Below are positions 9,448 through 48,224 of a DNA stretch of 64,000 nucleotides, in pieces. The notes under the pieces were generated by a model that ran no database searches, was not told the DNA's origin, and saw only the letters and a program-made list of their open reading frames with translations. Source of the stretch: Gemmatimonadota bacterium (GTDB lineage: Bacteria; Gemmatimonadota; Gemmatimonadetes; Gemmatimonadales; Gemmatimonadaceae); the NCBI GenBank assembly GCA_021299375.1, contig JAJTGR010000018.1, forward strand, positions 1 through 64,000. Direction: 5' to 3'. The position numbers and the translations under genes are program-made. The stretch's first letter is position 1; each line of letters opens with the position of its first letter.

Positions 9448-11303
9448 GGGCGGCCCTCCGCCATCTGCATCGCCGTTCGCACCAATCCGCCCAGCGCCTT
9501 GGCATCAGCCGCCGGCAACACGACGTATCGCGCCTTCATCGATTCGGCAATGCGCCGCGCCACCGCTTCGCCTCGCGGCGAGGTGTCCACGAACAGCGCC
9601 GGAATGTGCTGCGAGGCAAATCGCCCGCCCGCCGCCAGCGCGTCCCGCTCGGCCTGCTGCCGTCCGGGAGAGCCGTCGCGGGCAATGTTCGCCCGGCCGT
9701 CGGTGAGCATCACCACCAACGGCGCGCTGCCGCCCCGGCGAATGCCGATGGCCTGCTCCAGCGCCGTGTCGATGGCAAGGGCCATCGGTGTGCCACCACC
9801 ACCGGGCAGCGCCGCGAGCACCTTCTTCGCGCGGGCCAGTGCGCGCGTGGGCGGCAGCAGCACATCGGTGCCCTGGCCGCGAAATGCCAGGAGGCTCACA
9901 CGATCGCGACGGGCATAGCTCTCGGCCAGCAGCAGCTCCACCGCGCCCTTCGCCTCGGCGAGGCGATAAAGGGCCGAGGACCCCGAGGCATCGACCACAA
10001 AGAGCACCGTGGTGCCGGTCTTCTCGATGAAGCGACGAATCCGGAAATCCTCACGGCGTACGGCCACCTGCGGACGTGTGCCGCGGGCGACGGTCGCCGC
10101 CCGTGGCGGAGTCGAACGGACACGTTGCCACGGGGCCGCGGCCCGCAGCGTCTCCAGCAGGTGCAGGCGCGCTCCCCCCCGCGGCAGGCCACTGCGCGCT
10201 CCGCGGGGACGGCCACGCAGCAGGTTCGGCGTTTCCTCACCAACGCGCCCCTGCATGACGCCGGCCACGCGGTTCTGCGCCAGCAACTGCGCGAGCAGTC
10301 CTGGCGGCAACGCCGCCTGCACCGCGGCGCGCAGCAGGTCCCCGCTGTCGGGCGTGGGCTGGGCGCTGTCATCGTCGCGGTCACGTCGCTCCTCCGGCCT
10401 CTCCGGCTCGTCGGGCTGCTCCAACGGCGGCGGCGGGGGCTCCGGCTCCTCGCCCGGCTCATGCTGCTCGGGCGACGTGTCGTCGGACGCCTCCTCGGGG
10501 GGCGGGGGCAGGCGGGTCGCCCGCGGGGCAAACACCAGCGCCGCCGCCTGCTCGGCATCGCTCTCCGTCACCACCAGCCGTCCGTCCAGCGCCGCCAGCG
10601 CCCGCGCGCCGCGCAGCGCAAAGAGCATCGCCCGTACGGAGTCCACACCGAACGCCTCCGCTGTTTCGCACAGCGCCACCGACCAGGCGTCATCGACAGT
10701 CACCTGCGGCAGCCGATGCCGGGCTTCGCGCACCAGCGTCCCAAACGGATGCGCCTCCGATTCGTCGGCCAGCCGCGCGAGCTCCTCGCTCGTGCGGCCA
10801 TCGAAGCGCACTCGGAACGCGAGGCGGTCGGAGAGCGCCGGATGCACAACTTCGTCGTCCACCGATTCGTCGAGCAGCAGCGCACAGACCCGCGCGGCGT
10901 GGCGCTCGCCGATGCCGTCGCGCGCGACCTGCACCTCGCCATGATCGAGCACTTCGCACACCGCCGTCCGTCCAGCGACCGCGAGGCGTTCGGCCATCGG
11001 GATCACGATCACGCCGCCGTCGGCCCCGGCAAGCACCCCGCGATCCGCCACCAGCCTGCCTGCCGCCAGCGTGGCCGCAAGGTCGACGCCGCCGTAGAGC
11101 CGGTCCGCGGTGATGCTCGACGGGACCCGTCGCAACGGCGCGCCGGCCGGCAGCCACGCCCGCACCAGCGACGCGAACGTCCGCGCCTGCTCGTGCAGCG
11201 GGTGATCGAGCACGGCGCCACCGAGGCCGCGCGGGTCGACCGCCAGCAGGAGCGCCGTCAGCGCGCCACCGCTCGACGGCAGGTCAGGGCGCGACGGCGC
11301 CAT
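9444..11303 (-). CDS. bchD: Magnesium chelatase subunit D
   Basis: BchD is the 619-aa scaffold that links BchI ATPase rings to BchH during Mg insertion into protoporphyrin IX. It has a degenerate AAA-like N-terminal half, a Pro/Glu-rich acidic linker (EEASDDTSPEQHEPGEEPEPPPPP) and a C-terminal vWA domain. The vWA MIDAS residues are visible: VVDASGSSA, GGGTPMALAI and LTDGRANIARDG. The ORF track starts at 11402, but that region is bchI coding sequence. ATG 11303, giving MAPSRPDLPSSGGAL, overlaps the end of bchI by 20 nt and fits the family N-terminus. The linker separating AAA and vWA parts is typical of ChlD/BchD. Confidence 0.93.
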   Translation of the reverse strand: MAPSRPDLPSSGGALTALLLAVDPRGLGGAVLDHPLHEQARTFASLVRAWLPAGAPLRRVPSSITADRLYGGVDLAATLAAGRLVADRGVLAGADGGVIVIPMAERLAVAGRTAVCEVLDHGEVQVARDGIGERHAARVCALLLDESVDDEVVHPALSDRLAFRVRFDGRTSEELARLADESEAHPFGTLVREARHRLPQVTVDDAWSVALCETAEAFGVDSVRAMLFALRGARALAALDGRLVVTESDAEQAAALVFAPRATRLPPPPEEASDDTSPEQHEPGEEPEPPPPPLEQPDEPERPEERRDRDDDSAQPTPDSGDLLRAAVQAALPPGLLAQLLAQNRVAGVMQGRVGEETPNLLRGRPRGARSGLPRGGARLHLLETLRAAAPWQRVRSTPPRAATVARGTRPQVAVRREDFRIRRFIEKTGTTVLFVVDASGSSALYRLAEAKGAVELLLAESYARRDRVSLLAFRGQGTDVLLPPTRALARAKKVLAALPGGGGTPMALAIDTALEQAIGIRRGGSAPLVVMLTDGRANIARDGSPGRQQAERDALAAGGRFASQHIPALFVDTSPRGEAVARRIAESMKARYVVLPAADAKALGGLVRTAMQMAEGRP

Positions 11304-12327
11304 CGGTCCACAGGTCCTCGATCGCCCGCGCCACGCGGGTGGTCGACCCCGCGTCGTCAAGCACATTGCGGCGCAGCCGGTGCCGCAGCGCCATGGGCGC
11401 AATGCGGCGCAGGTGATCGAGCGTCACCGCGTCGGCGCCTTCATACGCAGCCAGCGCGCGCGTGGTCCGCAGCAGGGTGAGTTCGCCGCGTAGCCCGTCG
11501 GTGCCCAGCGCCGAGCAGAGCGCCGCCGCCCGCTCGAGGATGGCATCGGGCACGGTGAGCGTTTCCAGCCGGGTGCGAGCCTTCTCCAAGGAGCGGCGCA
11601 CCTTGGCGTCCGCTTTCTGCCAGTGCGTCAGGAATGCCTCGGGGTCCCGGTCGTACGCATCGCGGCGCTTGATCACCTCGATGCGCGACCCGATCGCCGC
11701 AGGCGTTTTCACGTCGACGGCGAGCCCGAACCGGTCCAGCAGCTGCGGCCGCAGCTCGCCTTCCTCCGGGTTGCCGCTGCCCACCAGGACGAAGCGTGAC
11801 GGGTGCCGCACGCTGACCCCCTCCCGCTCGACGACATTCTCTCCCGTGGCCGCGGCATCGAGCAGCAGGTCGACCAGATGATCCTCGAGCAGGTTCACCT
11901 CGTCGACGTAGAGAAAGCCGCGGTGGGCGCGCGCCAGCAGTCCGGGCTCGAACGCCTTCTCGCCGGTGGTCAGCGCCCGCTCGAGGTCGAGGGCGCCCAC
12001 GACGCGGTCTTCGGTGGCGCCCAGCGGCAGGTCGACCACCGGCACGGGCGCAAGCACGGCGCGGGGATGTTGGCCGGCCGCCAGCCGGTCACGGCAGTCG
12101 TCGCAGCGGGCCCCCTTGTCGGCGGGGTCGCAGCCGTACTTGCACCCCTGCACCACCTTCATGGGCGGGAGGAGCCCGGCGAGAGCGCGTACGGCGGTGC
12201 TCTTGCCCGTACCACGGTCGCCGAACACCATGACCCCGCCGATGGTGGGGTCGATGGCCACCAGCAGGAGGGCCAGCTTCATCTCCTCCTGGCCGACGAT
12301 GGCACTGAACGGATACACAGGTCGCAT
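11284..12327 (-). CDS. bchI: Magnesium chelatase ATPase subunit I
   Basis: BchI is a 347-aa AAA+ ATPase forming the hexameric motor of Mg chelatase. The N-terminus YPFSAIVGQEEMKLALLLVAIDPTIGGVMVFGDRGTGKST contains Walker A at about residues 36-44. Walker B is GFLYVDEVNLLEDHLVD. The conserved Cys-containing insertion (GCKYGCDPADKGARCDDC) follows Walker A as in other BchI/ChlI proteins. It heads a bchI-bchD-puhE operon with overlapping genes and faces crtF divergently across a 168-nt region carrying two PpsR-type palindromes. Confidence 0.96.
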   Translation of the reverse strand: MRPVYPFSAIVGQEEMKLALLLVAIDPTIGGVMVFGDRGTGKSTAVRALAGLLPPMKVVQGCKYGCDPADKGARCDDCRDRLAAGQHPRAVLAPVPVVDLPLGATEDRVVGALDLERALTTGEKAFEPGLLARAHRGFLYVDEVNLLEDHLVDLLLDAAATGENVVEREGVSVRHPSRFVLVGSGNPEEGELRPQLLDRFGLAVDVKTPAAIGSRIEVIKRRDAYDRDPEAFLTHWQKADAKVRRSLEKARTRLETLTVPDAILERAAALCSALGTDGLRGELTLLRTTRALAAYEGADAVTLDHLRRIAPMALRHRLRRNVLDDAGSTTRVARAIEDLWTDGAVAP

Positions 12328-12350
12328 CGAGGTTCCGAAAGAATCCCGCA

Positions 12351-12367
12351 GCAGCCCCGGGGGCTGC
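12351..12367 (-). other. Perfect GC-rich palindrome in the bchI leader
   Basis: GCAGCCCCGGGGGCTGC is a near-perfect self-complementary 17-mer in the predicted 5' leader of bchI (start at 12327). No U-tract follows it in the bchI direction, so it is not an ordinary terminator. It could stabilise the leader or affect ribosome access. Confidence 0.4.
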
Positions 12368-12392
12368 CGGTAAGGTCTGAGACGCTGGGTGG

Positions 12393-12421
12393 ACGTTAGG
12401 AGCGGGAATCGGCTGTCGCAA
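12393..12421 (-). promoter_or_regulatory. Predicted sigma-70-like promoter of bchI-bchD-puhE
   Basis: On the minus strand, TTGCGA (12421-12416) and TAACGT (12398-12393) are separated by exactly 17 nt. The -35 hexamer lies within the first TGT-N12-ACA box, which would allow PpsR to block polymerase. Predicted start is about 12386, giving a leader of roughly 60 nt. Confidence 0.5.
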
Positions 12422-12431
12422 TGTCCTGACA
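12414..12431. promoter_or_regulatory. PpsR/CrtJ-type operator, box 1 (bchI side)
   Basis: TGTCGCAATGTCCTGACA matches the TGT-N12-ACA recognition pattern established for PpsR/CrtJ. It overlaps the predicted bchI -35 element. A second box lies 17 nt downstream on the crtF side. Confidence 0.7.
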
Positions 12432-12448
12432 GTCACAACATCAACGGG

Positions 12449-12466
12449 TGTACACTTTTCTTGACA
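12449..12466. promoter_or_regulatory. PpsR/CrtJ-type operator, box 2 (crtF side)
   Basis: TGTACACTTTTCTTGACA matches TGT-N12-ACA exactly, and its right end TTGACA is also the consensus -35 hexamer of crtF. Operator and -35 therefore share six bases. A closely similar 18-mer (CGTACACCTTTCTTGACA) lies upstream of aerR. Confidence 0.75.
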
Positions 12467-12489
12467 CCATTCCCGCCATTCGCTATCCT
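12461..12489 (+). promoter_or_regulatory. Predicted sigma-70-like promoter of crtF
   Basis: TTGACA (12461-12466), 17 nt, then TATCCT (12484-12489). The expected start point, about 7 nt after the -10, falls on the GTG at 12496 that I take as the crtF start, implying a leaderless message. Confidence 0.65.
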
Positions 12490-12495
12490 CGGCCT

Positions 12496-13722
12496 GTGAA
12501 TCCCCCCGAACAGGCGCTCCCCGCGCCACCGGTTCCGGCGGCTGAACGCCTGCGTACGCCCGCCGCCATTGACGCTGTTCCCGCTGCCCCAGCGACCGTG
12601 ACGCCCGCGCCGACATGGCTCGAGCGGATGCGCGATCGTTGGAACGCCTTGGTCGCCACCGACGACTTCCAGCGGTGGAGCGCCCGCTTCCCGCTCACGC
12701 GGCCGATCACGATGTACCGGTCGCGCAAGCTGTTCGACATCGTCTCGGGATTCGTCTACACGCAGACCCTGCTGGCCTGCGTCGAGCTCGACCTCTTCGA
12801 GTTCCTTGCCGACGGGGCGAGAACCGCGGACGAAATCGCCACCCACACCGGGCTGTCGCGTGCCAGCACCGAGCGCCTCGTCAACGCCGCCGTGTCGCTG
12901 CGCTTGCTCGTGAGGCGCCGCCACGGCCGCTTTGCCGTAGGGCCGCTCGGTGCACCGCTGGTGCGCAACACGGGCGTGCTGGCCCTCATCCGGCACCACC
13001 GGATGGCCTATCACGATCTCTCCGATCCGGTGTCGCTGCTCCGCCAGGGCGCCGATTACCGCACCGAACTGTCCCGCTACTGGTCCTACGCCGATGCGCC
13101 ACGCCCGCAGGCCATCGACGACACCCGGGTCGCGGCCTATTCGGAGATCATGGCCGCCACACTCCCCCCGGTCGCGCACGATGTGCTCGATGCCTACGAC
13201 CTGTCGAAGCACGAAAGCCTGCTCGACGTGGGCGGCGGCGAGGGCGCGTTCCTGTCGCTCGTCGGCGCGCGGCACCCCCGGCTGCAGCTCCAGCTGTTCG
13301 ACCTGCCGGCCGTGGCCGCGCGGGCCCGGACCCGTCTGGAACAGGCAGGACTCGGCGACCGGGTGACGTGCCACGGCGGCAACTTCCACGCCGATTCACT
13401 GCCCGGCGGTGCCGACGTCTGCTCCCTCGTCCGTGTCCTCCTGGATCATGACGACGCGTCGGTGCTCCGTCTCCTGCAGCGGGTGCGCGCGGCGCTGCCG
13501 CGTGGCGGGGTGCTGCTGATCGCCGAAGCGCTTGCCGGCGCCAAAGGGGCCGAGACGGTGGGCGACGCCTACTTCTCGTTCTACCTCATGGCCATGGGCA
13601 AGGGACGAGCGCGCCGGGCGTCGGAGCTGCACCAGCTGCTGCAGTCGGCCGGGTTCCGCCGCAGCCGAGAACTGCCGACCCGCTTCCCTATCCAGACCGG
13701 GCTGATCGTCGCCGAGGTCTGA
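12496..13722 (+). CDS. crtF: O-methyltransferase CrtF (hydroxyneurosporene/demethylspheroidene type)
   Basis: This is a 408-aa SAM-dependent methyltransferase with an N-terminal winged-helix/dimerisation region (LLACVELDLFEFLADGARTADEIATHTGLSRASTERLVNAAVSL) and a C-terminal Rossmann domain (ESLLDVGGGEGAFLSLVGARHP; GADVCSLVRVLLDHDDASVLRLLQRV). This is the family of CrtF and BchU. Its place just ahead of bchCXYZ is the classical crtF position, which favours carotenoid 1-hydroxyl methylation over BchU-like C-20 methylation. The ORF track starts at GTG 12448, but that codon lies inside a PpsR box and upstream of the -10. GTG 12496 is preferred, although it still leaves a Pro/Ala-rich N-terminal stretch of about 45 residues. 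No other crt gene is in the window. Confidence 0.83.
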   Translation: MNPPEQALPAPPVPAAERLRTPAAIDAVPAAPATVTPAPTWLERMRDRWNALVATDDFQRWSARFPLTRPITMYRSRKLFDIVSGFVYTQTLLACVELDLFEFLADGARTADEIATHTGLSRASTERLVNAAVSLRLLVRRRHGRFAVGPLGAPLVRNTGVLALIRHHRMAYHDLSDPVSLLRQGADYRTELSRYWSYADAPRPQAIDDTRVAAYSEIMAATLPPVAHDVLDAYDLSKHESLLDVGGGEGAFLSLVGARHPRLQLQLFDLPAVAARARTRLEQAGLGDRVTCHGGNFHADSLPGGADVCSLVRVLLDHDDASVLRLLQRVRAALPRGGVLLIAEALAGAKGAETVGDAYFSFYLMAMGKGRARRASELHQLLQSAGFRRSRELPTRFPIQTGLIVAEV

Positions 13723-13861
13723 AGGCGCGCCGGGTCCCCGCCGTCGAGGAAGACCGGGAGGCGCGCCGCCACCGCGGCCCACCGGTCGACCGCCGAGGGC
13801 CGTGGCCGATGCGTCACGGCGCGCCGCCGAGGTGGAGGCCGTGGGCGAATTCCCGACAGGA

Positions 13862-13905
13862 ACGCTCTGGATGTTGACAGCTTCTGGTGTCAACCTCACT
13901 GTACA
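13862..13905. promoter_or_regulatory. bchC promoter with a PpsR-type box pair at 8-bp spacing
   Basis: A perfect TGT-N12-ACA box, TGTCAACCTCACTGTACA, occupies 13888-13905. Exactly 8 bp upstream is the end of a weaker box finishing in TTGACA (13874-13879). TTGACA and TGTCAA form an inverted repeat across the 8-bp gap. Two boxes 8 bp apart is the known arrangement at Rhodobacter bchC. TTGACA can also serve as the -35, with CACTGT (13897-13902) 17 nt later as a poor -10 just upstream of the GTG start. Confidence 0.65.
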
Positions 13906-13909
13906 CGCC

Positions 13910-14863
13910 GTGAACACTCTCGCCGTCGTTTTCGAAGCGCCCACACAGCTGTCCGTTCGCGAACTCACGCTCGTCGCCCCCACGCCGCAGGATGTGGTGG
14001 TGGCGATGCGCTGGTCTGGCATCAGCACCGGCACGGAGAAGCTGCTGTTCACGGGGCGTATGCCTCCCTTTCCCGGCCTCGGGTATCCCCTCGTGCCCGG
14101 CTACGAGGGGGTCGGAGAGATCATCGAGGCCGGTGTCGAGTCCGGCCGTCGGGTCGGCCAGCTGGTGTATGTGCCTGGCTCCAAGGGCTTCACCGAGGCC
14201 CGCGGCTTGTTCGGGGGGCAGGCCTCGCGCGTCGTGGTGCCCGGGGCCAAGACCATCCCCCTCGCGGATCAGCTGGGCGAACAGGGTGCGCTCTTTGCCT
14301 TGGCGGCCACCGCGCACCACTGTCTCGAGGCGGATCCGGCCAACCATCTCGACACGCTGCCCACCCTGATCGTCGGCCACGGGGCGCTGGGGCGACTCAT
14401 TGCCCGGCTGTGCATGTTGTACGGCGCGCCGGCCCCGACGGTATGGGAGACGAACCCGATCCGCATGGACGGCGCCCGCGGCTACACGGTCATCCATCCG
14501 AACGACGACACGACCCGCGGCTACCGGACGATCTGCGATGTGAGCGGCGCCAATGGCATCCTCGATTCGCTGGTGGACAAGCTCGTGCCGGGGGGCGAAA
14601 TCATTCTCGGTGGCTTCTACAGCGAGCCGGTATCGTTCACCTTCCCGCCCGCGTTCCTGCGCGAAGCACGGCTGCGCATCGCGGCGCAATGGAAGGAACA
14701 GGACCTCATGGCCATCGCCGGGTTCGCCAACAGCGGCCGACTCGACCTCGATGGCCTCATCACGCACCGCGAGCCGGCGGCGCGTGCGGCCGACGCCTAC
14801 GCCACGGCGTTCGGTGATCCCCACTGCGTCAAGATGATCCTCGACTGGAGATCTGCTGCATGA
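13910..14863 (+). CDS. bchC: 3-hydroxyethyl bacteriochlorophyllide a dehydrogenase
   Basis: BchC oxidises the C3 1-hydroxyethyl group to the acetyl group of bacteriochlorophyllide a. This 317-aa protein is of the zinc-free MDR (alcohol dehydrogenase-like) family. It has GISTGTEKLLFTGRMPPFPGLGYPLVPGYEGVG near the N-terminus and a nucleotide-binding segment LPTLIVGHGALGRLIARLC. The longer ORF from 13802 includes the operator and promoter. GTG 13910 gives VNTLAVVFEAPTQLSVREL and the usual family length. The 3' end overlaps bchX (ATGA). Confidence 0.93.
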   Translation: MNTLAVVFEAPTQLSVRELTLVAPTPQDVVVAMRWSGISTGTEKLLFTGRMPPFPGLGYPLVPGYEGVGEIIEAGVESGRRVGQLVYVPGSKGFTEARGLFGGQASRVVVPGAKTIPLADQLGEQGALFALAATAHHCLEADPANHLDTLPTLIVGHGALGRLIARLCMLYGAPAPTVWETNPIRMDGARGYTVIHPNDDTTRGYRTICDVSGANGILDSLVDKLVPGGEIILGGFYSEPVSFTFPPAFLREARLRIAAQWKEQDLMAIAGFANSGRLDLDGLITHREPAARAADAYATAFGDPHCVKMILDWRSAA

Positions 14864-20064: not shown

Positions 20065-20108
20065 CGTAAATTCTTCTTGACGCATCGAACCGTAAGGTCC
20101 AGTTTACA
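20065..20108. promoter_or_regulatory. Candidate degenerate PpsR box pair in the bchO/puf divergent region
   Basis: CGTAAATTCTTCTTGACG (20065-20082) and CGTAAGGTCCAGTTTACA (20091-20108) both fit the 18-bp box layout, with C/G substitutions at the outer bases, and are exactly 8 bp apart. TTGACG at 20077-20082 could be the puf -35, but the -10 (CAGTTT at 17 nt) is weak. The spacing is the main argument; the core match is imperfect. Confidence 0.4.
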
Positions 20109-44691: not shown

Positions 44692-44720
44692 ATGCTACGG
44701 GTGGGACCCGAGGTTGTCAA
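44692..44720 (-). promoter_or_regulatory. Predicted sigma-70-like promoter of the bchF-puhC run
   Basis: On the minus strand TTGACA (44720-44715) and TAGCAT (44697-44692) are 17 nt apart. The -35 is part of the outer arm of a shared inverted repeat. The predicted start lies about 35 nt upstream of bchF. Confidence 0.6.
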
Positions 44721-44748
44721 GAACAGTTGACGTACACCTTTCTTGACA
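44715..44748. promoter_or_regulatory. Shared PpsR-type operator between bchF and aerR
   Basis: TGTCAAGAA (44715-44723) and TTCTTGACA (44740-44748) are a perfect 9-bp inverted repeat. The region can be read as two overlapping 18-bp boxes, TGTCAAGAACAGTTGACG and CGTACACCTTTCTTGACA, each with one outer-base mismatch to TGT-N12-ACA. Each outer arm contains the -35 hexamer of one of the divergent promoters. Confidence 0.6.
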
Positions 44749-44849: not shown

Positions 44850-45803
44850 ATGTTCGGCGCGTCTTTCCAGCCCGTCGCTTCCGGCTCCACTTCGGTGTCC
44901 AAGGGCGCGGGCCTCTCGCCTGACGTCATGGATCACGTGCCTCCATCGCGCCACAGTGAGCGTCTCGCGCGCCTCGAACGGACCATCCAGCACGAGCTTG
45001 TTCCACGGCTGATGACGAGTCATCGCGTCGGCCCCGTGTCGCCGGCCATGTTGTCGGCCGCGACGCGGGTGTTGTCGGAGCGCGATGTGGCGGCCTTCGT
45101 GGCGGCCGTGCGGAGCCAGCACGAGGGCCACAGTGCCGAGTTCATCCGCGCCGTGCTCGACGAGGGCGCCACGGTCGAAGCCGTCTATCTGGATCTCCTC
45201 GCGCCATCGGCGCGACGACTGGGGGCCCTGTGGGATGCCGACGAGTGCGACTTCGTCGAGGTGACCGTCGCGCTCGGGCGCATGCAGCGCCTGCTCCGTG
45301 ATTTGTCGCAGGTGTTCCTCGCGGAAGCTGGGCAGTCGGAGCCGGTGGGCAACGTCCTGCTCACCTGCGTCCCGGGCGAGCAGCACACGCTCGGGATCAT
45401 CATGGTGGGCGAGTTCCTGCTTCGTGACGGGTGGCGAGTGCTCGTCGGCGCCCCGTGGTCCGACAGCGACCTGCCGTCCATGGTGGCTGCAGACTGGTAC
45501 GACGTGATCGGGTTTTCCGTGGGCACGGAGAATCGCCTTGCCGTGCTGCGCCGTGACATCCGGCGTCTCAAGTCGGCCTCGAAGAATCCCAACGTGCAGG
45601 TCATGGTCGGCGGCCAGCTCTTCGCCGACCATCCGGAGCTGGCCGACCAGGTCGGGGCCCAGGCCATTGCGGCCGACGCCCGATCGGCGCCGGTCGTTGC
45701 GCGTTCACTCCTTGCCGCGGCGCGCGTCTCTACCGCGGGTCGCCTTCCGCCAGAGGGGCTCGCCGAGCATGGCCAGTTCCGTGAAGCCCTTCGACGGGAC
45801 TAA
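44850..45803 (+). CDS. aerR: Cobalamin-binding antirepressor AerR/PpaA
   Basis: This 317-aa protein has a helical region (FIRAVLDEGATVEAVYLDLLAPSARRLGALWDADECDFVEVTVALGRMQRLLRDLS) followed by a B12-binding-like Rossmann domain. That domain has PGEQHTLGIIMVGEFLLRDGWRV, where QHTLG stands for the DxHxxG motif with Asp replaced by Glu. This is the PpaA/AerR type (SCHIC-like domain) that modulates PpsR/CrtJ using cobalamin as light sensor in Rhodobacter. AAGGAG lies 9 nt upstream of ATG 44850, so the longer ORF is rejected. It overlaps ppsR by 35 nt. Confidence 0.86.
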   Translation: MFGASFQPVASGSTSVSKGAGLSPDVMDHVPPSRHSERLARLERTIQHELVPRLMTSHRVGPVSPAMLSAATRVLSERDVAAFVAAVRSQHEGHSAEFIRAVLDEGATVEAVYLDLLAPSARRLGALWDADECDFVEVTVALGRMQRLLRDLSQVFLAEAGQSEPVGNVLLTCVPGEQHTLGIIMVGEFLLRDGWRVLVGAPWSDSDLPSMVAADWYDVIGFSVGTENRLAVLRRDIRRLKSASKNPNVQVMVGGQLFADHPELADQVGAQAIAADARSAPVVARSLLAAARVSTAGRLPPEGLAEHGQFREALRRD

Positions 45804-47211
45804 CCCCGTCTTGGGCGAGCTGGATGCCAAGTCCGCGGCGGCGCTGCTGGCCGTCGCGGGCGACATCGCGCTGGTCATGGACGCGGCGGGCGTCATCCGT
45901 GACGTGACGCTGGTCAGCGGCGGCGATTCGCAGTTCGACGCGGCCACCCAGTGGGTGGGCCGGCCATGGAATGAGACGGTCACCAGCGAGTCGCGCGGAA
46001 AGATCGACACTCTGGTCAAGGAAGCAGCCCATCAGGGCATCTCCAAGCGTCGTCAGGTCAATCACGTCCTCGGCGACGTCAGTGAGGTGCCCATCGCCTA
46101 CACCACCATCAAGCTGGGCCGCGAGGGCGGCCTGGTGGCGGTCGGCCGCGACATGCGACACGTGTCGGCGTTGCAGCAGCGCCTCGTCGAGGCCCAGCAG
46201 GCCATGGAGCGCGATTACTGGCGGCTCCGCCATGTGGAGACGCGCTACCGTCTGCTCTTCCAGCTCGCCAGCGACGGCATTCTGGTCCTCGATGCGGCCA
46301 ACCTCAAAGTGCTCGACGCGAACTCGGCCGCAGGACAGATCTTCGGCGAGCCGGCCGATCGCCTGCTCGGCAAGACGTTCCCGTTCGGGATGGACGCGGC
46401 CACCAGCCGCCAACTCGACGACCTGCTCTCCTCGGCGCGGAGCGCGGGTCGGGCGGGCGAGGTCACGATGCCCCTGCTCGGGGGGCGGAACTATCATGCC
46501 TCGGCGTCCTGCTTCCGGCAGGAGTCGTCGACGTTGATGCTGCTCCGCTTCTCCCCGGCCGACGCGTCGGTGGCCGAAGCGACCGGGGCCAGTTCGCCCT
46601 CCAGGCTGCTCGACCTCCTCGAACGCTCGCCCGACGCCTTTGTCGTCACCGACCTCGACGGCGACATCCTGACCGCCAATCGCGCCTTCCTCGACATCGC
46701 CGAGCTGGCCAGTGAGGAGCAGGTACGGGGGACGCCGCTGGCCACGTACATCGGTCGCCCGGGCGCGGATTTCGGTGTGTTCACCGGCATGCTGCGACGC
46801 AACGGCGTGGTGCGCCTGATGGCAACCACGGCCCGCGGGACGCATGGCCATCAATCGGAAGTCGAGGTGTCGGCCGTGTGGGCGCCGGAGGGGGAGGAGC
46901 CGTGCATCGGCTTCACCATCCGGGACATCGGCCGGCGGCTCGCCAGCGGCCCGCAGGGTGCGCGGGACCTGACGCGTGCCGTCGAGGAACTCACGTCGCT
47001 GGTTGGCCGGGTGTCGCTCCGCGACCTCGTGCGGGACACGGTGGACCTTGTCGAGCGCCACTTCATCGAGGCCGCCCTCGAGCTCACGCATGACAACCGG
47101 ACCTCAGCGGCCGAGGTGCTGGGGGTGAGCCGGCAGAGCCTGTACGTGAAGCTGAGACGCCATCGACTGGTGACGCCGGGCGCCGATCGGGACGACGACG
47201 TCAGCCGCTGA
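45769..47211 (+). CDS. ppsR: Transcriptional repressor PpsR/CrtJ
   Basis: This 480-aa regulator has an N-terminal PAS-like domain, a Q-linker helix (ALQQRLVEAQQAMERDYWRLRHVETRYRLLF), two further PAS domains and a C-terminal Fis-type helix-turn-helix (FIEAALELTHDNRTSAAEVLGVSRQSLYVKLRRHRL). This is the PpsR/CrtJ layout, and the HTH is nearly identical to the family. Only two Cys are present: Cys248 (SASCFRQ) and Cys379 (EEPCIGF). The HTH-associated Cys of Rhodobacter PpsR/CrtJ appears to be Phe432 here. It starts at ATG 45769 inside aerR. Its likely targets are the TGT-N12-ACA sites in this window. Confidence 0.92.
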   Translation: MASSVKPFDGTNPVLGELDAKSAAALLAVAGDIALVMDAAGVIRDVTLVSGGDSQFDAATQWVGRPWNETVTSESRGKIDTLVKEAAHQGISKRRQVNHVLGDVSEVPIAYTTIKLGREGGLVAVGRDMRHVSALQQRLVEAQQAMERDYWRLRHVETRYRLLFQLASDGILVLDAANLKVLDANSAAGQIFGEPADRLLGKTFPFGMDAATSRQLDDLLSSARSAGRAGEVTMPLLGGRNYHASASCFRQESSTLMLLRFSPADASVAEATGASSPSRLLDLLERSPDAFVVTDLDGDILTANRAFLDIAELASEEQVRGTPLATYIGRPGADFGVFTGMLRRNGVVRLMATTARGTHGHQSEVEVSAVWAPEGEEPCIGFTIRDIGRRLASGPQGARDLTRAVEELTSLVGRVSLRDLVRDTVDLVERHFIEAALELTHDNRTSAAEVLGVSRQSLYVKLRRHRLVTPGADRDDDVSR

Positions 47212-47270: not shown

Positions 47271-47288
47271 TGTAAACTAGACTAGACA
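47271..47288. promoter_or_regulatory. PpsR/CrtJ-type operator upstream of bchG
   Basis: TGTAAACTAGACTAGACA is a perfect TGT-N12-ACA match ending 3 nt before the bchG ATG. It covers the probable start site, so binding would block initiation of the bchG-bchP-hem run. The 80-nt gap holds no other clear element. Confidence 0.7.
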
Positions 47289-47291
47289 CAT

Positions 47292-48224
47292 ATGGGCGTC
47301 AGTTATACAGAACAAGCAGCCCCATCCCGGCTGGATCCGCGTGCGGTTCTGACGCTGCTCAAGCCGGTGACTTGGTTTCCGCCGATGTGGGCGTTCACCT
47401 GTGGCGCGATTTCGGCGGGGGTGCCCCTGTCGTCGGAGCGCCTCTGGACGCTGGCATTGGGGATTGGCCTGACCGGCCCGCTGGTCTGTGCGTCGAGCCA
47501 GGCTGTCAATGATTGGTTCGACCGGCACGTTGACGCCATCAACGAGCCGAATCGCCCCATTCCCTCGGGGCGTATCCCCGGGCAGTGGGGGCTGATCATC
47601 GCGGTGTTCTGGAGTGTGCTCTGCGTGGTGTGGGCCCTGCCACTTGGCGCCTTCGGCCTCGCCGCGGTCGCCGTGGCGCTGGCGTTCTCCTGGGGCTACA
47701 GCGCGCCGCCGTTCCGCTTCAAGCGCAATGGCTGGGTTGGCAACGCGGCCGTGGGCTTCACCTACGAAGGGCTGGCCTGGACGACGGGGGCCGGCATCAT
47801 GCTGGGGAATGTGCTACCGCCGGCGCCGCTGTTGCTGCTGGCCGTGCTCTACAGCATCGGTGCGCACGGCATCATGACGCTCAATGACTTCAAGTCCATC
47901 GAGGGTGACCGGACGATGGGCGTCAACTCGCTCCCGGTGCTGCTTGGGCCCCACGGGGCCGCGCGCGTCGCGGCGGGCGTGATGCTGGCGGCGCAAGTCG
48001 TGGTGATCGGGTTGCTGGTCGCGTGGGGACGTCCCGGCTATGCCACCGCCATCGGCGTGTTGGCGGCGATCCAGGCGGGCCTCATGGGGTGGTTTCTCGG
48101 GCAGCCGGTGGAGCGCGCGCTCTACCTCAGCGCGTTTGGTGTGCCGTTCTATGTGAGTGGGATGATGGTGTCGGCGTTCGCGGTGCGGACGCTCCCCCTC
48201 CTGGACACGGTGGTCCGCGGATGA
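47292..48224 (+). CDS. bchG: Bacteriochlorophyll a synthase (geranylgeranyl/phytyl transferase)
   Basis: BchG esterifies bacteriochlorophyllide a with a prenyl diphosphate. This 310-aa polytopic protein of the UbiA family has the Mg-diphosphate motif QAVNDWFDRHVDAINEPNRPIPSGRI and the second motif GIMTLNDFKSIEGDRTMGVNSLPVLLG, both diagnostic of BchG/ChlG. It overlaps the next gene by 4 nt (ATGA). Confidence 0.96.
   Translation: MGVSYTEQAAPSRLDPRAVLTLLKPVTWFPPMWAFTCGAISAGVPLSSERLWTLALGIGLTGPLVCASSQAVNDWFDRHVDAINEPNRPIPSGRIPGQWGLIIAVFWSVLCVVWALPLGAFGLAAVAVALAFSWGYSAPPFRFKRNGWVGNAAVGFTYEGLAWTTGAGIMLGNVLPPAPLLLLAVLYSIGAHGIMTLNDFKSIEGDRTMGVNSLPVLLGPHGAARVAAGVMLAAQVVVIGLLVAWGRPGYATAIGVLAAIQAGLMGWFLGQPVERALYLSAFGVPFYVSGMMVSAFAVRTLPLLDTVVRG

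Follow-up and report, generated by a model that had tools for sequence, protein, structure and literature searches.

The DNA between bchI and crtF raises the question whether one PpsR operator could control two divergent photosynthesis promoters at once. For Gemmatimonas phototrophica, almost no regulation of the photosynthesis genes after their horizontal transfer has been described, with a single PpsR site reported, at bchID-puhE (PMC11406998). The stretch of DNA analysed here (64,000 nt, hereafter the window) comes from a Gemmatimonas species and consists of a photosynthesis gene cluster. In it, bchI (11284–12327, minus strand), encoding the Mg-chelatase ATPase subunit (TIGR02030, 517.7 bits), heads the operon bchI-bchD-puhE, and crtF (12496–13722, plus strand), encoding a carotenoid O-methyltransferase, heads crtF-bchC-bchX-bchY-bchZ. 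As the crtF product scores below the cut-off of the NCBIfam CrtF/BchU model, this gene was named by its context, crtF-bchCXYZ; AP64 produces a 1'-methoxy carotenoid that has been ascribed to crtF (PMC8342508). Both gene assignments had been made in an earlier note on this DNA and stand on these grounds.

Two exact TGT-N12-ACA palindromes, the motif of PpsR/CrtJ operators, lie between the two genes at precisely the positions that the earlier note had given: box 1, TGTCGCAATGTCCTGACA (12414–12431; 18.3 bits), and box 2, TGTACACTTTTCTTGACA (12449–12466; 22.3 bits), both scored with a matrix trained on genomes other than the present one (see below). As in other operators of this family, the boxes lie on promoter elements of photosynthesis genes, here with one -35 element under each box. 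The bchI -35 hexamer TTGCGA (12416–12421, minus strand) is contained in box 1 and is followed by the -10 element TAACGT (12393–12398, minus strand); the crtF -35 hexamer TTGACA (12461–12466, plus strand), identified by a sigma-70-like scan and by conservation, forms the right end of box 2 and is followed by TATCCT (12484–12489, plus strand). The crtF promoter is the sole sigma-70-like site found by a generic scan of positions 12000–14000, and the bchI promoter is too weak for that scan, yet conserved. The close second box that is usual in these operators, typically 8 bp away, is replaced here by one at 17 bp (linker 12432–12448); the 8-bp gap is typical but not obligatory, as far-apart PpsR/CrtJ pairs are known too (PMC9144470). 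A third TGT-N12-ACA at 12495–12512 is unconserved and below the matrix cut-off and was rejected as a chance match.

The loose motif TGT-N12-ACA is not enriched in the window (8 matches against 6.6 expected), and because this count is close to chance, significance was judged by conservation. A search for CrtF over 395 genomes of the phylum returned matches in 42, and crtF is divergent from bchI in nearly all CrtF-positive genomes of the Gemmatimonadaceae. Both boxes could be aligned in 31 Gemmatimonadaceae loci with divergent bchI/crtF; these loci are related, so that the counts below are not independent, and they represent several genera with CrtF identities of 52–89%. One genome (G331, locus L114) encodes PpsR and gave no CrtF match; it may photosynthesise without crtF, or its assembly may be incomplete.

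The promoter register proposed in the earlier note, one -35 under each box and 17-nt spacers in both promoters, proved right and is conserved among these relatives. On the bchI side a -10 element of the form TANNNT follows the -35 after exactly 17 nt in all loci but one (30 of 31), the remaining one having TATAAT at 16, and its middle bases differ among loci (TAACGT, TATCGT, TACTAT, TAAACT and others). The hexamer TTGCGA is kept in nearly all loci, including those that have lost the outer base of box 1. On the crtF side TANNNT is found at exactly 17 nt in 25 loci, and at no other spacer length from 8 to 29 nt in any of the 31. The six exceptions (GAAGTT, GAATTT, GAGCTT) come from closely related genomes that form a single group, the presumed AP64 among them. 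In these loci (L003–L007 and L050) the -10 element lacks its TA in spite of an intact box 2 and TTGACA, and the crtF promoter, including that of the presumed G. phototrophica AP64, may be weak. In genus g21 (L019–L021, L072), box 1 with its TTGCGA is lost or altered and box 2 lies near bchI, and the bchI promoter there has therefore been rebuilt.

The distance between the boxes falls into two classes. Measured from start to start it is 24–27 bp in 21 loci, which corresponds to gaps of 6–9 bp, and 35 bp in the other ten, with nothing between; the presumed AP64 has 35, and G. groenlandica TET16 has 24. The 35-bp spacing belongs to one clade within Gemmatimonas, for which the support of 0.85 speaks only moderately for a single origin, and it is derived, since the short spacing is found in every other genus and in the remaining members of Gemmatimonas. 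The departure from the usual 8 bp that the earlier note had pointed out is hence real, fixed in this clade and derived. Within the clade the linker measures 17 bp in 10 of 10 loci although its mean pairwise identity is only 0.42, against 0.92 for box 1 and 0.98 for box 2; the gap thus stays constant, whereas the leader separating box 1 and bchI ranges between 86 and 109 bp. The inner half-sites of the boxes, which are part of no promoter element, are conserved, and both boxes are conserved more strongly than box 1 of the short-gap sister lineages. Conservation of this kind points to an operator, yet it would not by itself reveal the identity of the protein that binds it.

PpsR is encoded in the window. 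The stretch 45844–47166 (plus strand) matches TIGR02040 with 480.9 bits against a cut-off of 275.4, and its product contains Pfam PAS domains and a C-terminal Fis-type helix-turn-helix (HTH_8), matching the PpsR structure 4hh2. PpsR scored above the cut-off in 38 of the 44 genomes examined. Beside it, ppaA (44850–45803, plus strand) encodes a PpaA/AerR-like co-regulator with a Pfam B12-binding domain.

To locate further sites, a scoring matrix was built from boxes that lie at bchI/crtF and bchG in other genomes, a site of at least 14 bits being called strong. Seven such sites were found in the window against 0.75 expected in first-order Markov sequences, and all seven lie at photosynthesis promoters, namely bchI/crtF, bchC, puf-bchO, bchF/ppaA and bchG. 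Recovery of the bchI/crtF and bchG boxes is partly circular because their orthologues trained the matrix; the sites at bchC, puf/bchO and bchF/ppaA are independent of the training. The box at bchC, TGTCAACCTCACTGTACA (13888–13905; 18.1 bits), lies 8 bp past a conserved TTGACA, upstream of a gene (13910–14863, plus strand; TIGR01202, 413 bits) whose GTG start is conserved; it is present in most relatives and also upstream of proteobacterial bchC. The puf/bchO promoter region carries a pair (20065–20082, 15.1 bits; 20091–20108, 11.8 bits) with the classic 8-bp gap, and this 26-bp spacing recurs in four relatives. At the divergent bchF and ppaA promoters one box overlaps the bchF -35 (44715–44732; 21.4 bits) and another the ppaA -35 (44731–44748; 16.7 bits); the two share 2 bp, a conserved arrangement that Gemmatimonadota have in common with Thiodictyon and Novosphingobium. 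The box at bchG (47271–47288; 19.4 bits) ends 3 bp before the ATG of the bacteriochlorophyll synthase gene (47292–48224, plus strand; TIGR01476, 291.9 bits) and starts 21 bp upstream of this codon; nearly all relatives, in different genera and families, have it at the same distance. The presumed AP64 genome has matrix-detected boxes at all these promoters (loci L135–L137). In the sister genus g2 (L127, L129, L131, L132) a further strong box is found either late within ppaA or in the interval separating ppaA from ppsR, some 1460 bp upstream of the codons for the HTH, and could perhaps serve ppsR autoregulation.

The GTG start of crtF (12496) is only 6 nt beyond the -10 hexamer, and throughout the genus this distance is 5–7 nt wherever the -10 element is recognisable and the CrtF start can be aligned. 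The GTG and the N-terminus VNPPEQAL are conserved in the genus. A start at the upstream GTG 12448 was rejected, as this codon falls within box 2 and conservation of the protein begins only at 12496. Transcription of crtF therefore likely begins on the GTG itself, which would give a leaderless mRNA. At bchG (window 47271–47294) the PpsR box encloses a -10 element, TAGACT/TAAACT, and the bchG mRNA may be nearly leaderless too.

Taken from the sequence comparisons, the region very probably contains a two-box PpsR operator common to the divergent bchI and crtF promoters and repressing both, and PpsR most likely represses the cluster with these two genes included. Since one -35 sits under each box, bound PpsR should block both promoters; with both boxes occupied, RNA polymerase would be excluded from the bchI-bchD-puhE operon and from crtF, and the dimer pair would couple Mg-chelatase supply to crtF. 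The bchI/crtF pair would then be one among several PpsR operators of the cluster, next to those at bchC, puf/bchO, bchF/ppaA and bchG. Its ancestral gap was 6–9 bp, the classic length, and in one Gemmatimonas clade it grew once by about 10 bp. Such a step amounts to roughly one helical turn, so that the relative faces of the boxes are roughly kept, and the subsequent maintenance of exactly 17 bp suggests a continued interaction of two PpsR dimers over this distance. Binding, repression and cooperativity at bchI/crtF are predicted from these features.

A close precedent is the Rhodobacter capsulatus bchC operator, which also has two TGT-N12-ACA palindromes on promoter elements and is bound by a regulator of the same family, CrtJ/PpsR. 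There, however, both boxes (-30 to -47 and -4 to -21) lie on one promoter with an 8-bp gap, covering its -35 and -10 elements and leading to repression (PMC5362033), whereas at bchI/crtF each of two divergent -35 elements has its own box and the gap is 17 bp. The pucB and crtI operators of Rubrivivax gelatinosus are likewise paired, and their gap length matters: with 9 instead of 8 bp, cooperativity, the shape of binding and the redox response were all altered (PMC4452267), and a 17-bp gap may therefore alter the response as well. The natural gaps are 9 bp at pucB and 8 bp at crtI, and the tested set excluded 17 bp (PMC4452267). In Congregibacter litoralis many tandem PpsR boxes occur at photosynthesis promoters, with gaps of 7 or 8 nt rather than 17 bp (PMC2654016). 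A similar layout is seen in the operator at bchF/ppaA of the Gemmatimonadota, where boxes also face each other with one per divergent -35; shared in its spacing of 16 bp by Acidiphilium, Novosphingobium and Thiodictyon, it differs from bchI/crtF in that its boxes overlap by 2 bp.

This spacing of 16 is constant in most readable Gemmatimonadota loci; one Acetobacteraceae genome has 25. Proteobacterial pairs are mostly at 16 or 24–27, with candidates, some of them weak, at 30, 31 and 47, and none was seen at 35 among the pairs sampled. Two to three of these candidates (30, 31, 47) break a strict quantisation of spacing by helical turns, which was rejected; steps of one turn (16, 24–27 and 35 in Gemmatimonadota) are a suggestive tendency in the sequences compared. 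Published PpsR gaps are 7–9 bp or very distant (PMC2654016, PMC4452267, PMC9144470), and a gap of 17 bp was not found in the published work that could be searched. What is new is thus the one-turn-longer, 17-bp divergent pair, the PpsR operator itself being already known.

As for the signal, purple-bacterial PpsR requires a cysteine in the HTH (C420/C424 in Rhodobacter) for redox control (PMC4452267). The corresponding position is Phe in every one of the 30 PpsR proteins of Gemmatimonadota that were inspected (window 45844–47166 and L105–L134), the correspondence being drawn from its place in the HTH with the Rhodobacter sequence outside the alignment. The aligned residue is Cys in Thiodictyon, Novosphingobium, Roseobacter, Roseinatronobacter and Granulosicoccaceae, and Ser in Acetobacteraceae and one Rubrivivax MAG. 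Rubrivivax gelatinosus PpsR, in which the residue is Cys436, still represses as the C436A mutant; the Rhodobacter-type redox-active Cys, absent here, is not required for membership of the PpsR/CrtJ family. Its absence would fit the G. phototrophica cluster, which shows no repression in response to oxygen and only a transient decrease in response to light, with ppsR unchanged (PMC11406998). Oxygen is therefore a doubtful input signal for PpsR here, and with the HTH Cys missing, light acting through the B12-binding PpaA/AerR-like partner is the likelier input than direct oxygen sensing.

Three other explanations have to be weighed against the common repressor operator. A repressor-free reading, in which TGT and ACA arise incidentally where the -35 elements of two divergent promoters happen to face each other, would agree with TTGACA including the right half-site and with the chance-level count of the motif in the window; it would leave unaccounted for the inner half-sites conserved outside any promoter element, the same motif in other contexts at bchG and bchC and the presence of ppsR within the cluster, and we regard it as extremely improbable. 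A greater, yet still small, likelihood attaches to PpsR being an activator, or a light-dependent switch together with PpaA/AerR, instead of a repressor. An activating role has been proposed for CrtJ with LAerR in Rhodobacter capsulatus (PMC9144470), a B12-binding partner gene adjoins ppsR, and expression of the G. phototrophica cluster is high under both oxygen regimes (PMC11406998); the position of the boxes over -35 elements nevertheless favours repression by occlusion.

The remaining alternative accepts the sites as real and as coming from a purple-bacterial donor, and holds that in the 17-bp clade the dimers no longer cooperate, so that the boxes act singly and exert weak, largely vestigial control. 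G. phototrophica, which has the 17-bp state, accords with this through its lack of oxygen control and merely transient decrease (PMC11406998), as do the sensitivity of the Rubrivivax redox response and binding shape to a single base pair of gap (PMC4452267), the Phe in place of the redox Cys and the missing TA of the crtF -10 in six relatives of the clade, the presumed G. phototrophica among them. A vestigial pair should drift, however, and the gap is exactly 17 bp in 10 genomes despite a diverged linker and a bchI leader of 86 to 109 bp, with both boxes better conserved than box 1 of the short-gap sisters. We therefore consider the loss of cooperation rather unlikely, though it carries appreciable weight.

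The conservation of boxes at every one of these promoters argues for a PpsR network that outlived the transfer and is under selection, and the missing oxygen response must therefore be explained in some other way. Two specific and testable candidate causes are the loss of the HTH cysteine and the altered box spacing, and the natural series of spacings (16, 24–27 and 35) offers a ready-made experiment on the interaction of PpsR dimers. Tentatively, and as a possibility to which we give well under even odds, loss of the HTH Cys after transfer together with a one-turn reset of the bchI/crtF operator in one Gemmatimonas clade may have replaced an oxygen-responsive repressor by a redox-blind brake tuned by B12 and light. 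If this is true, such a brake would coordinate the first committed step of bacteriochlorophyll synthesis with a leaderless carotenoid gene.
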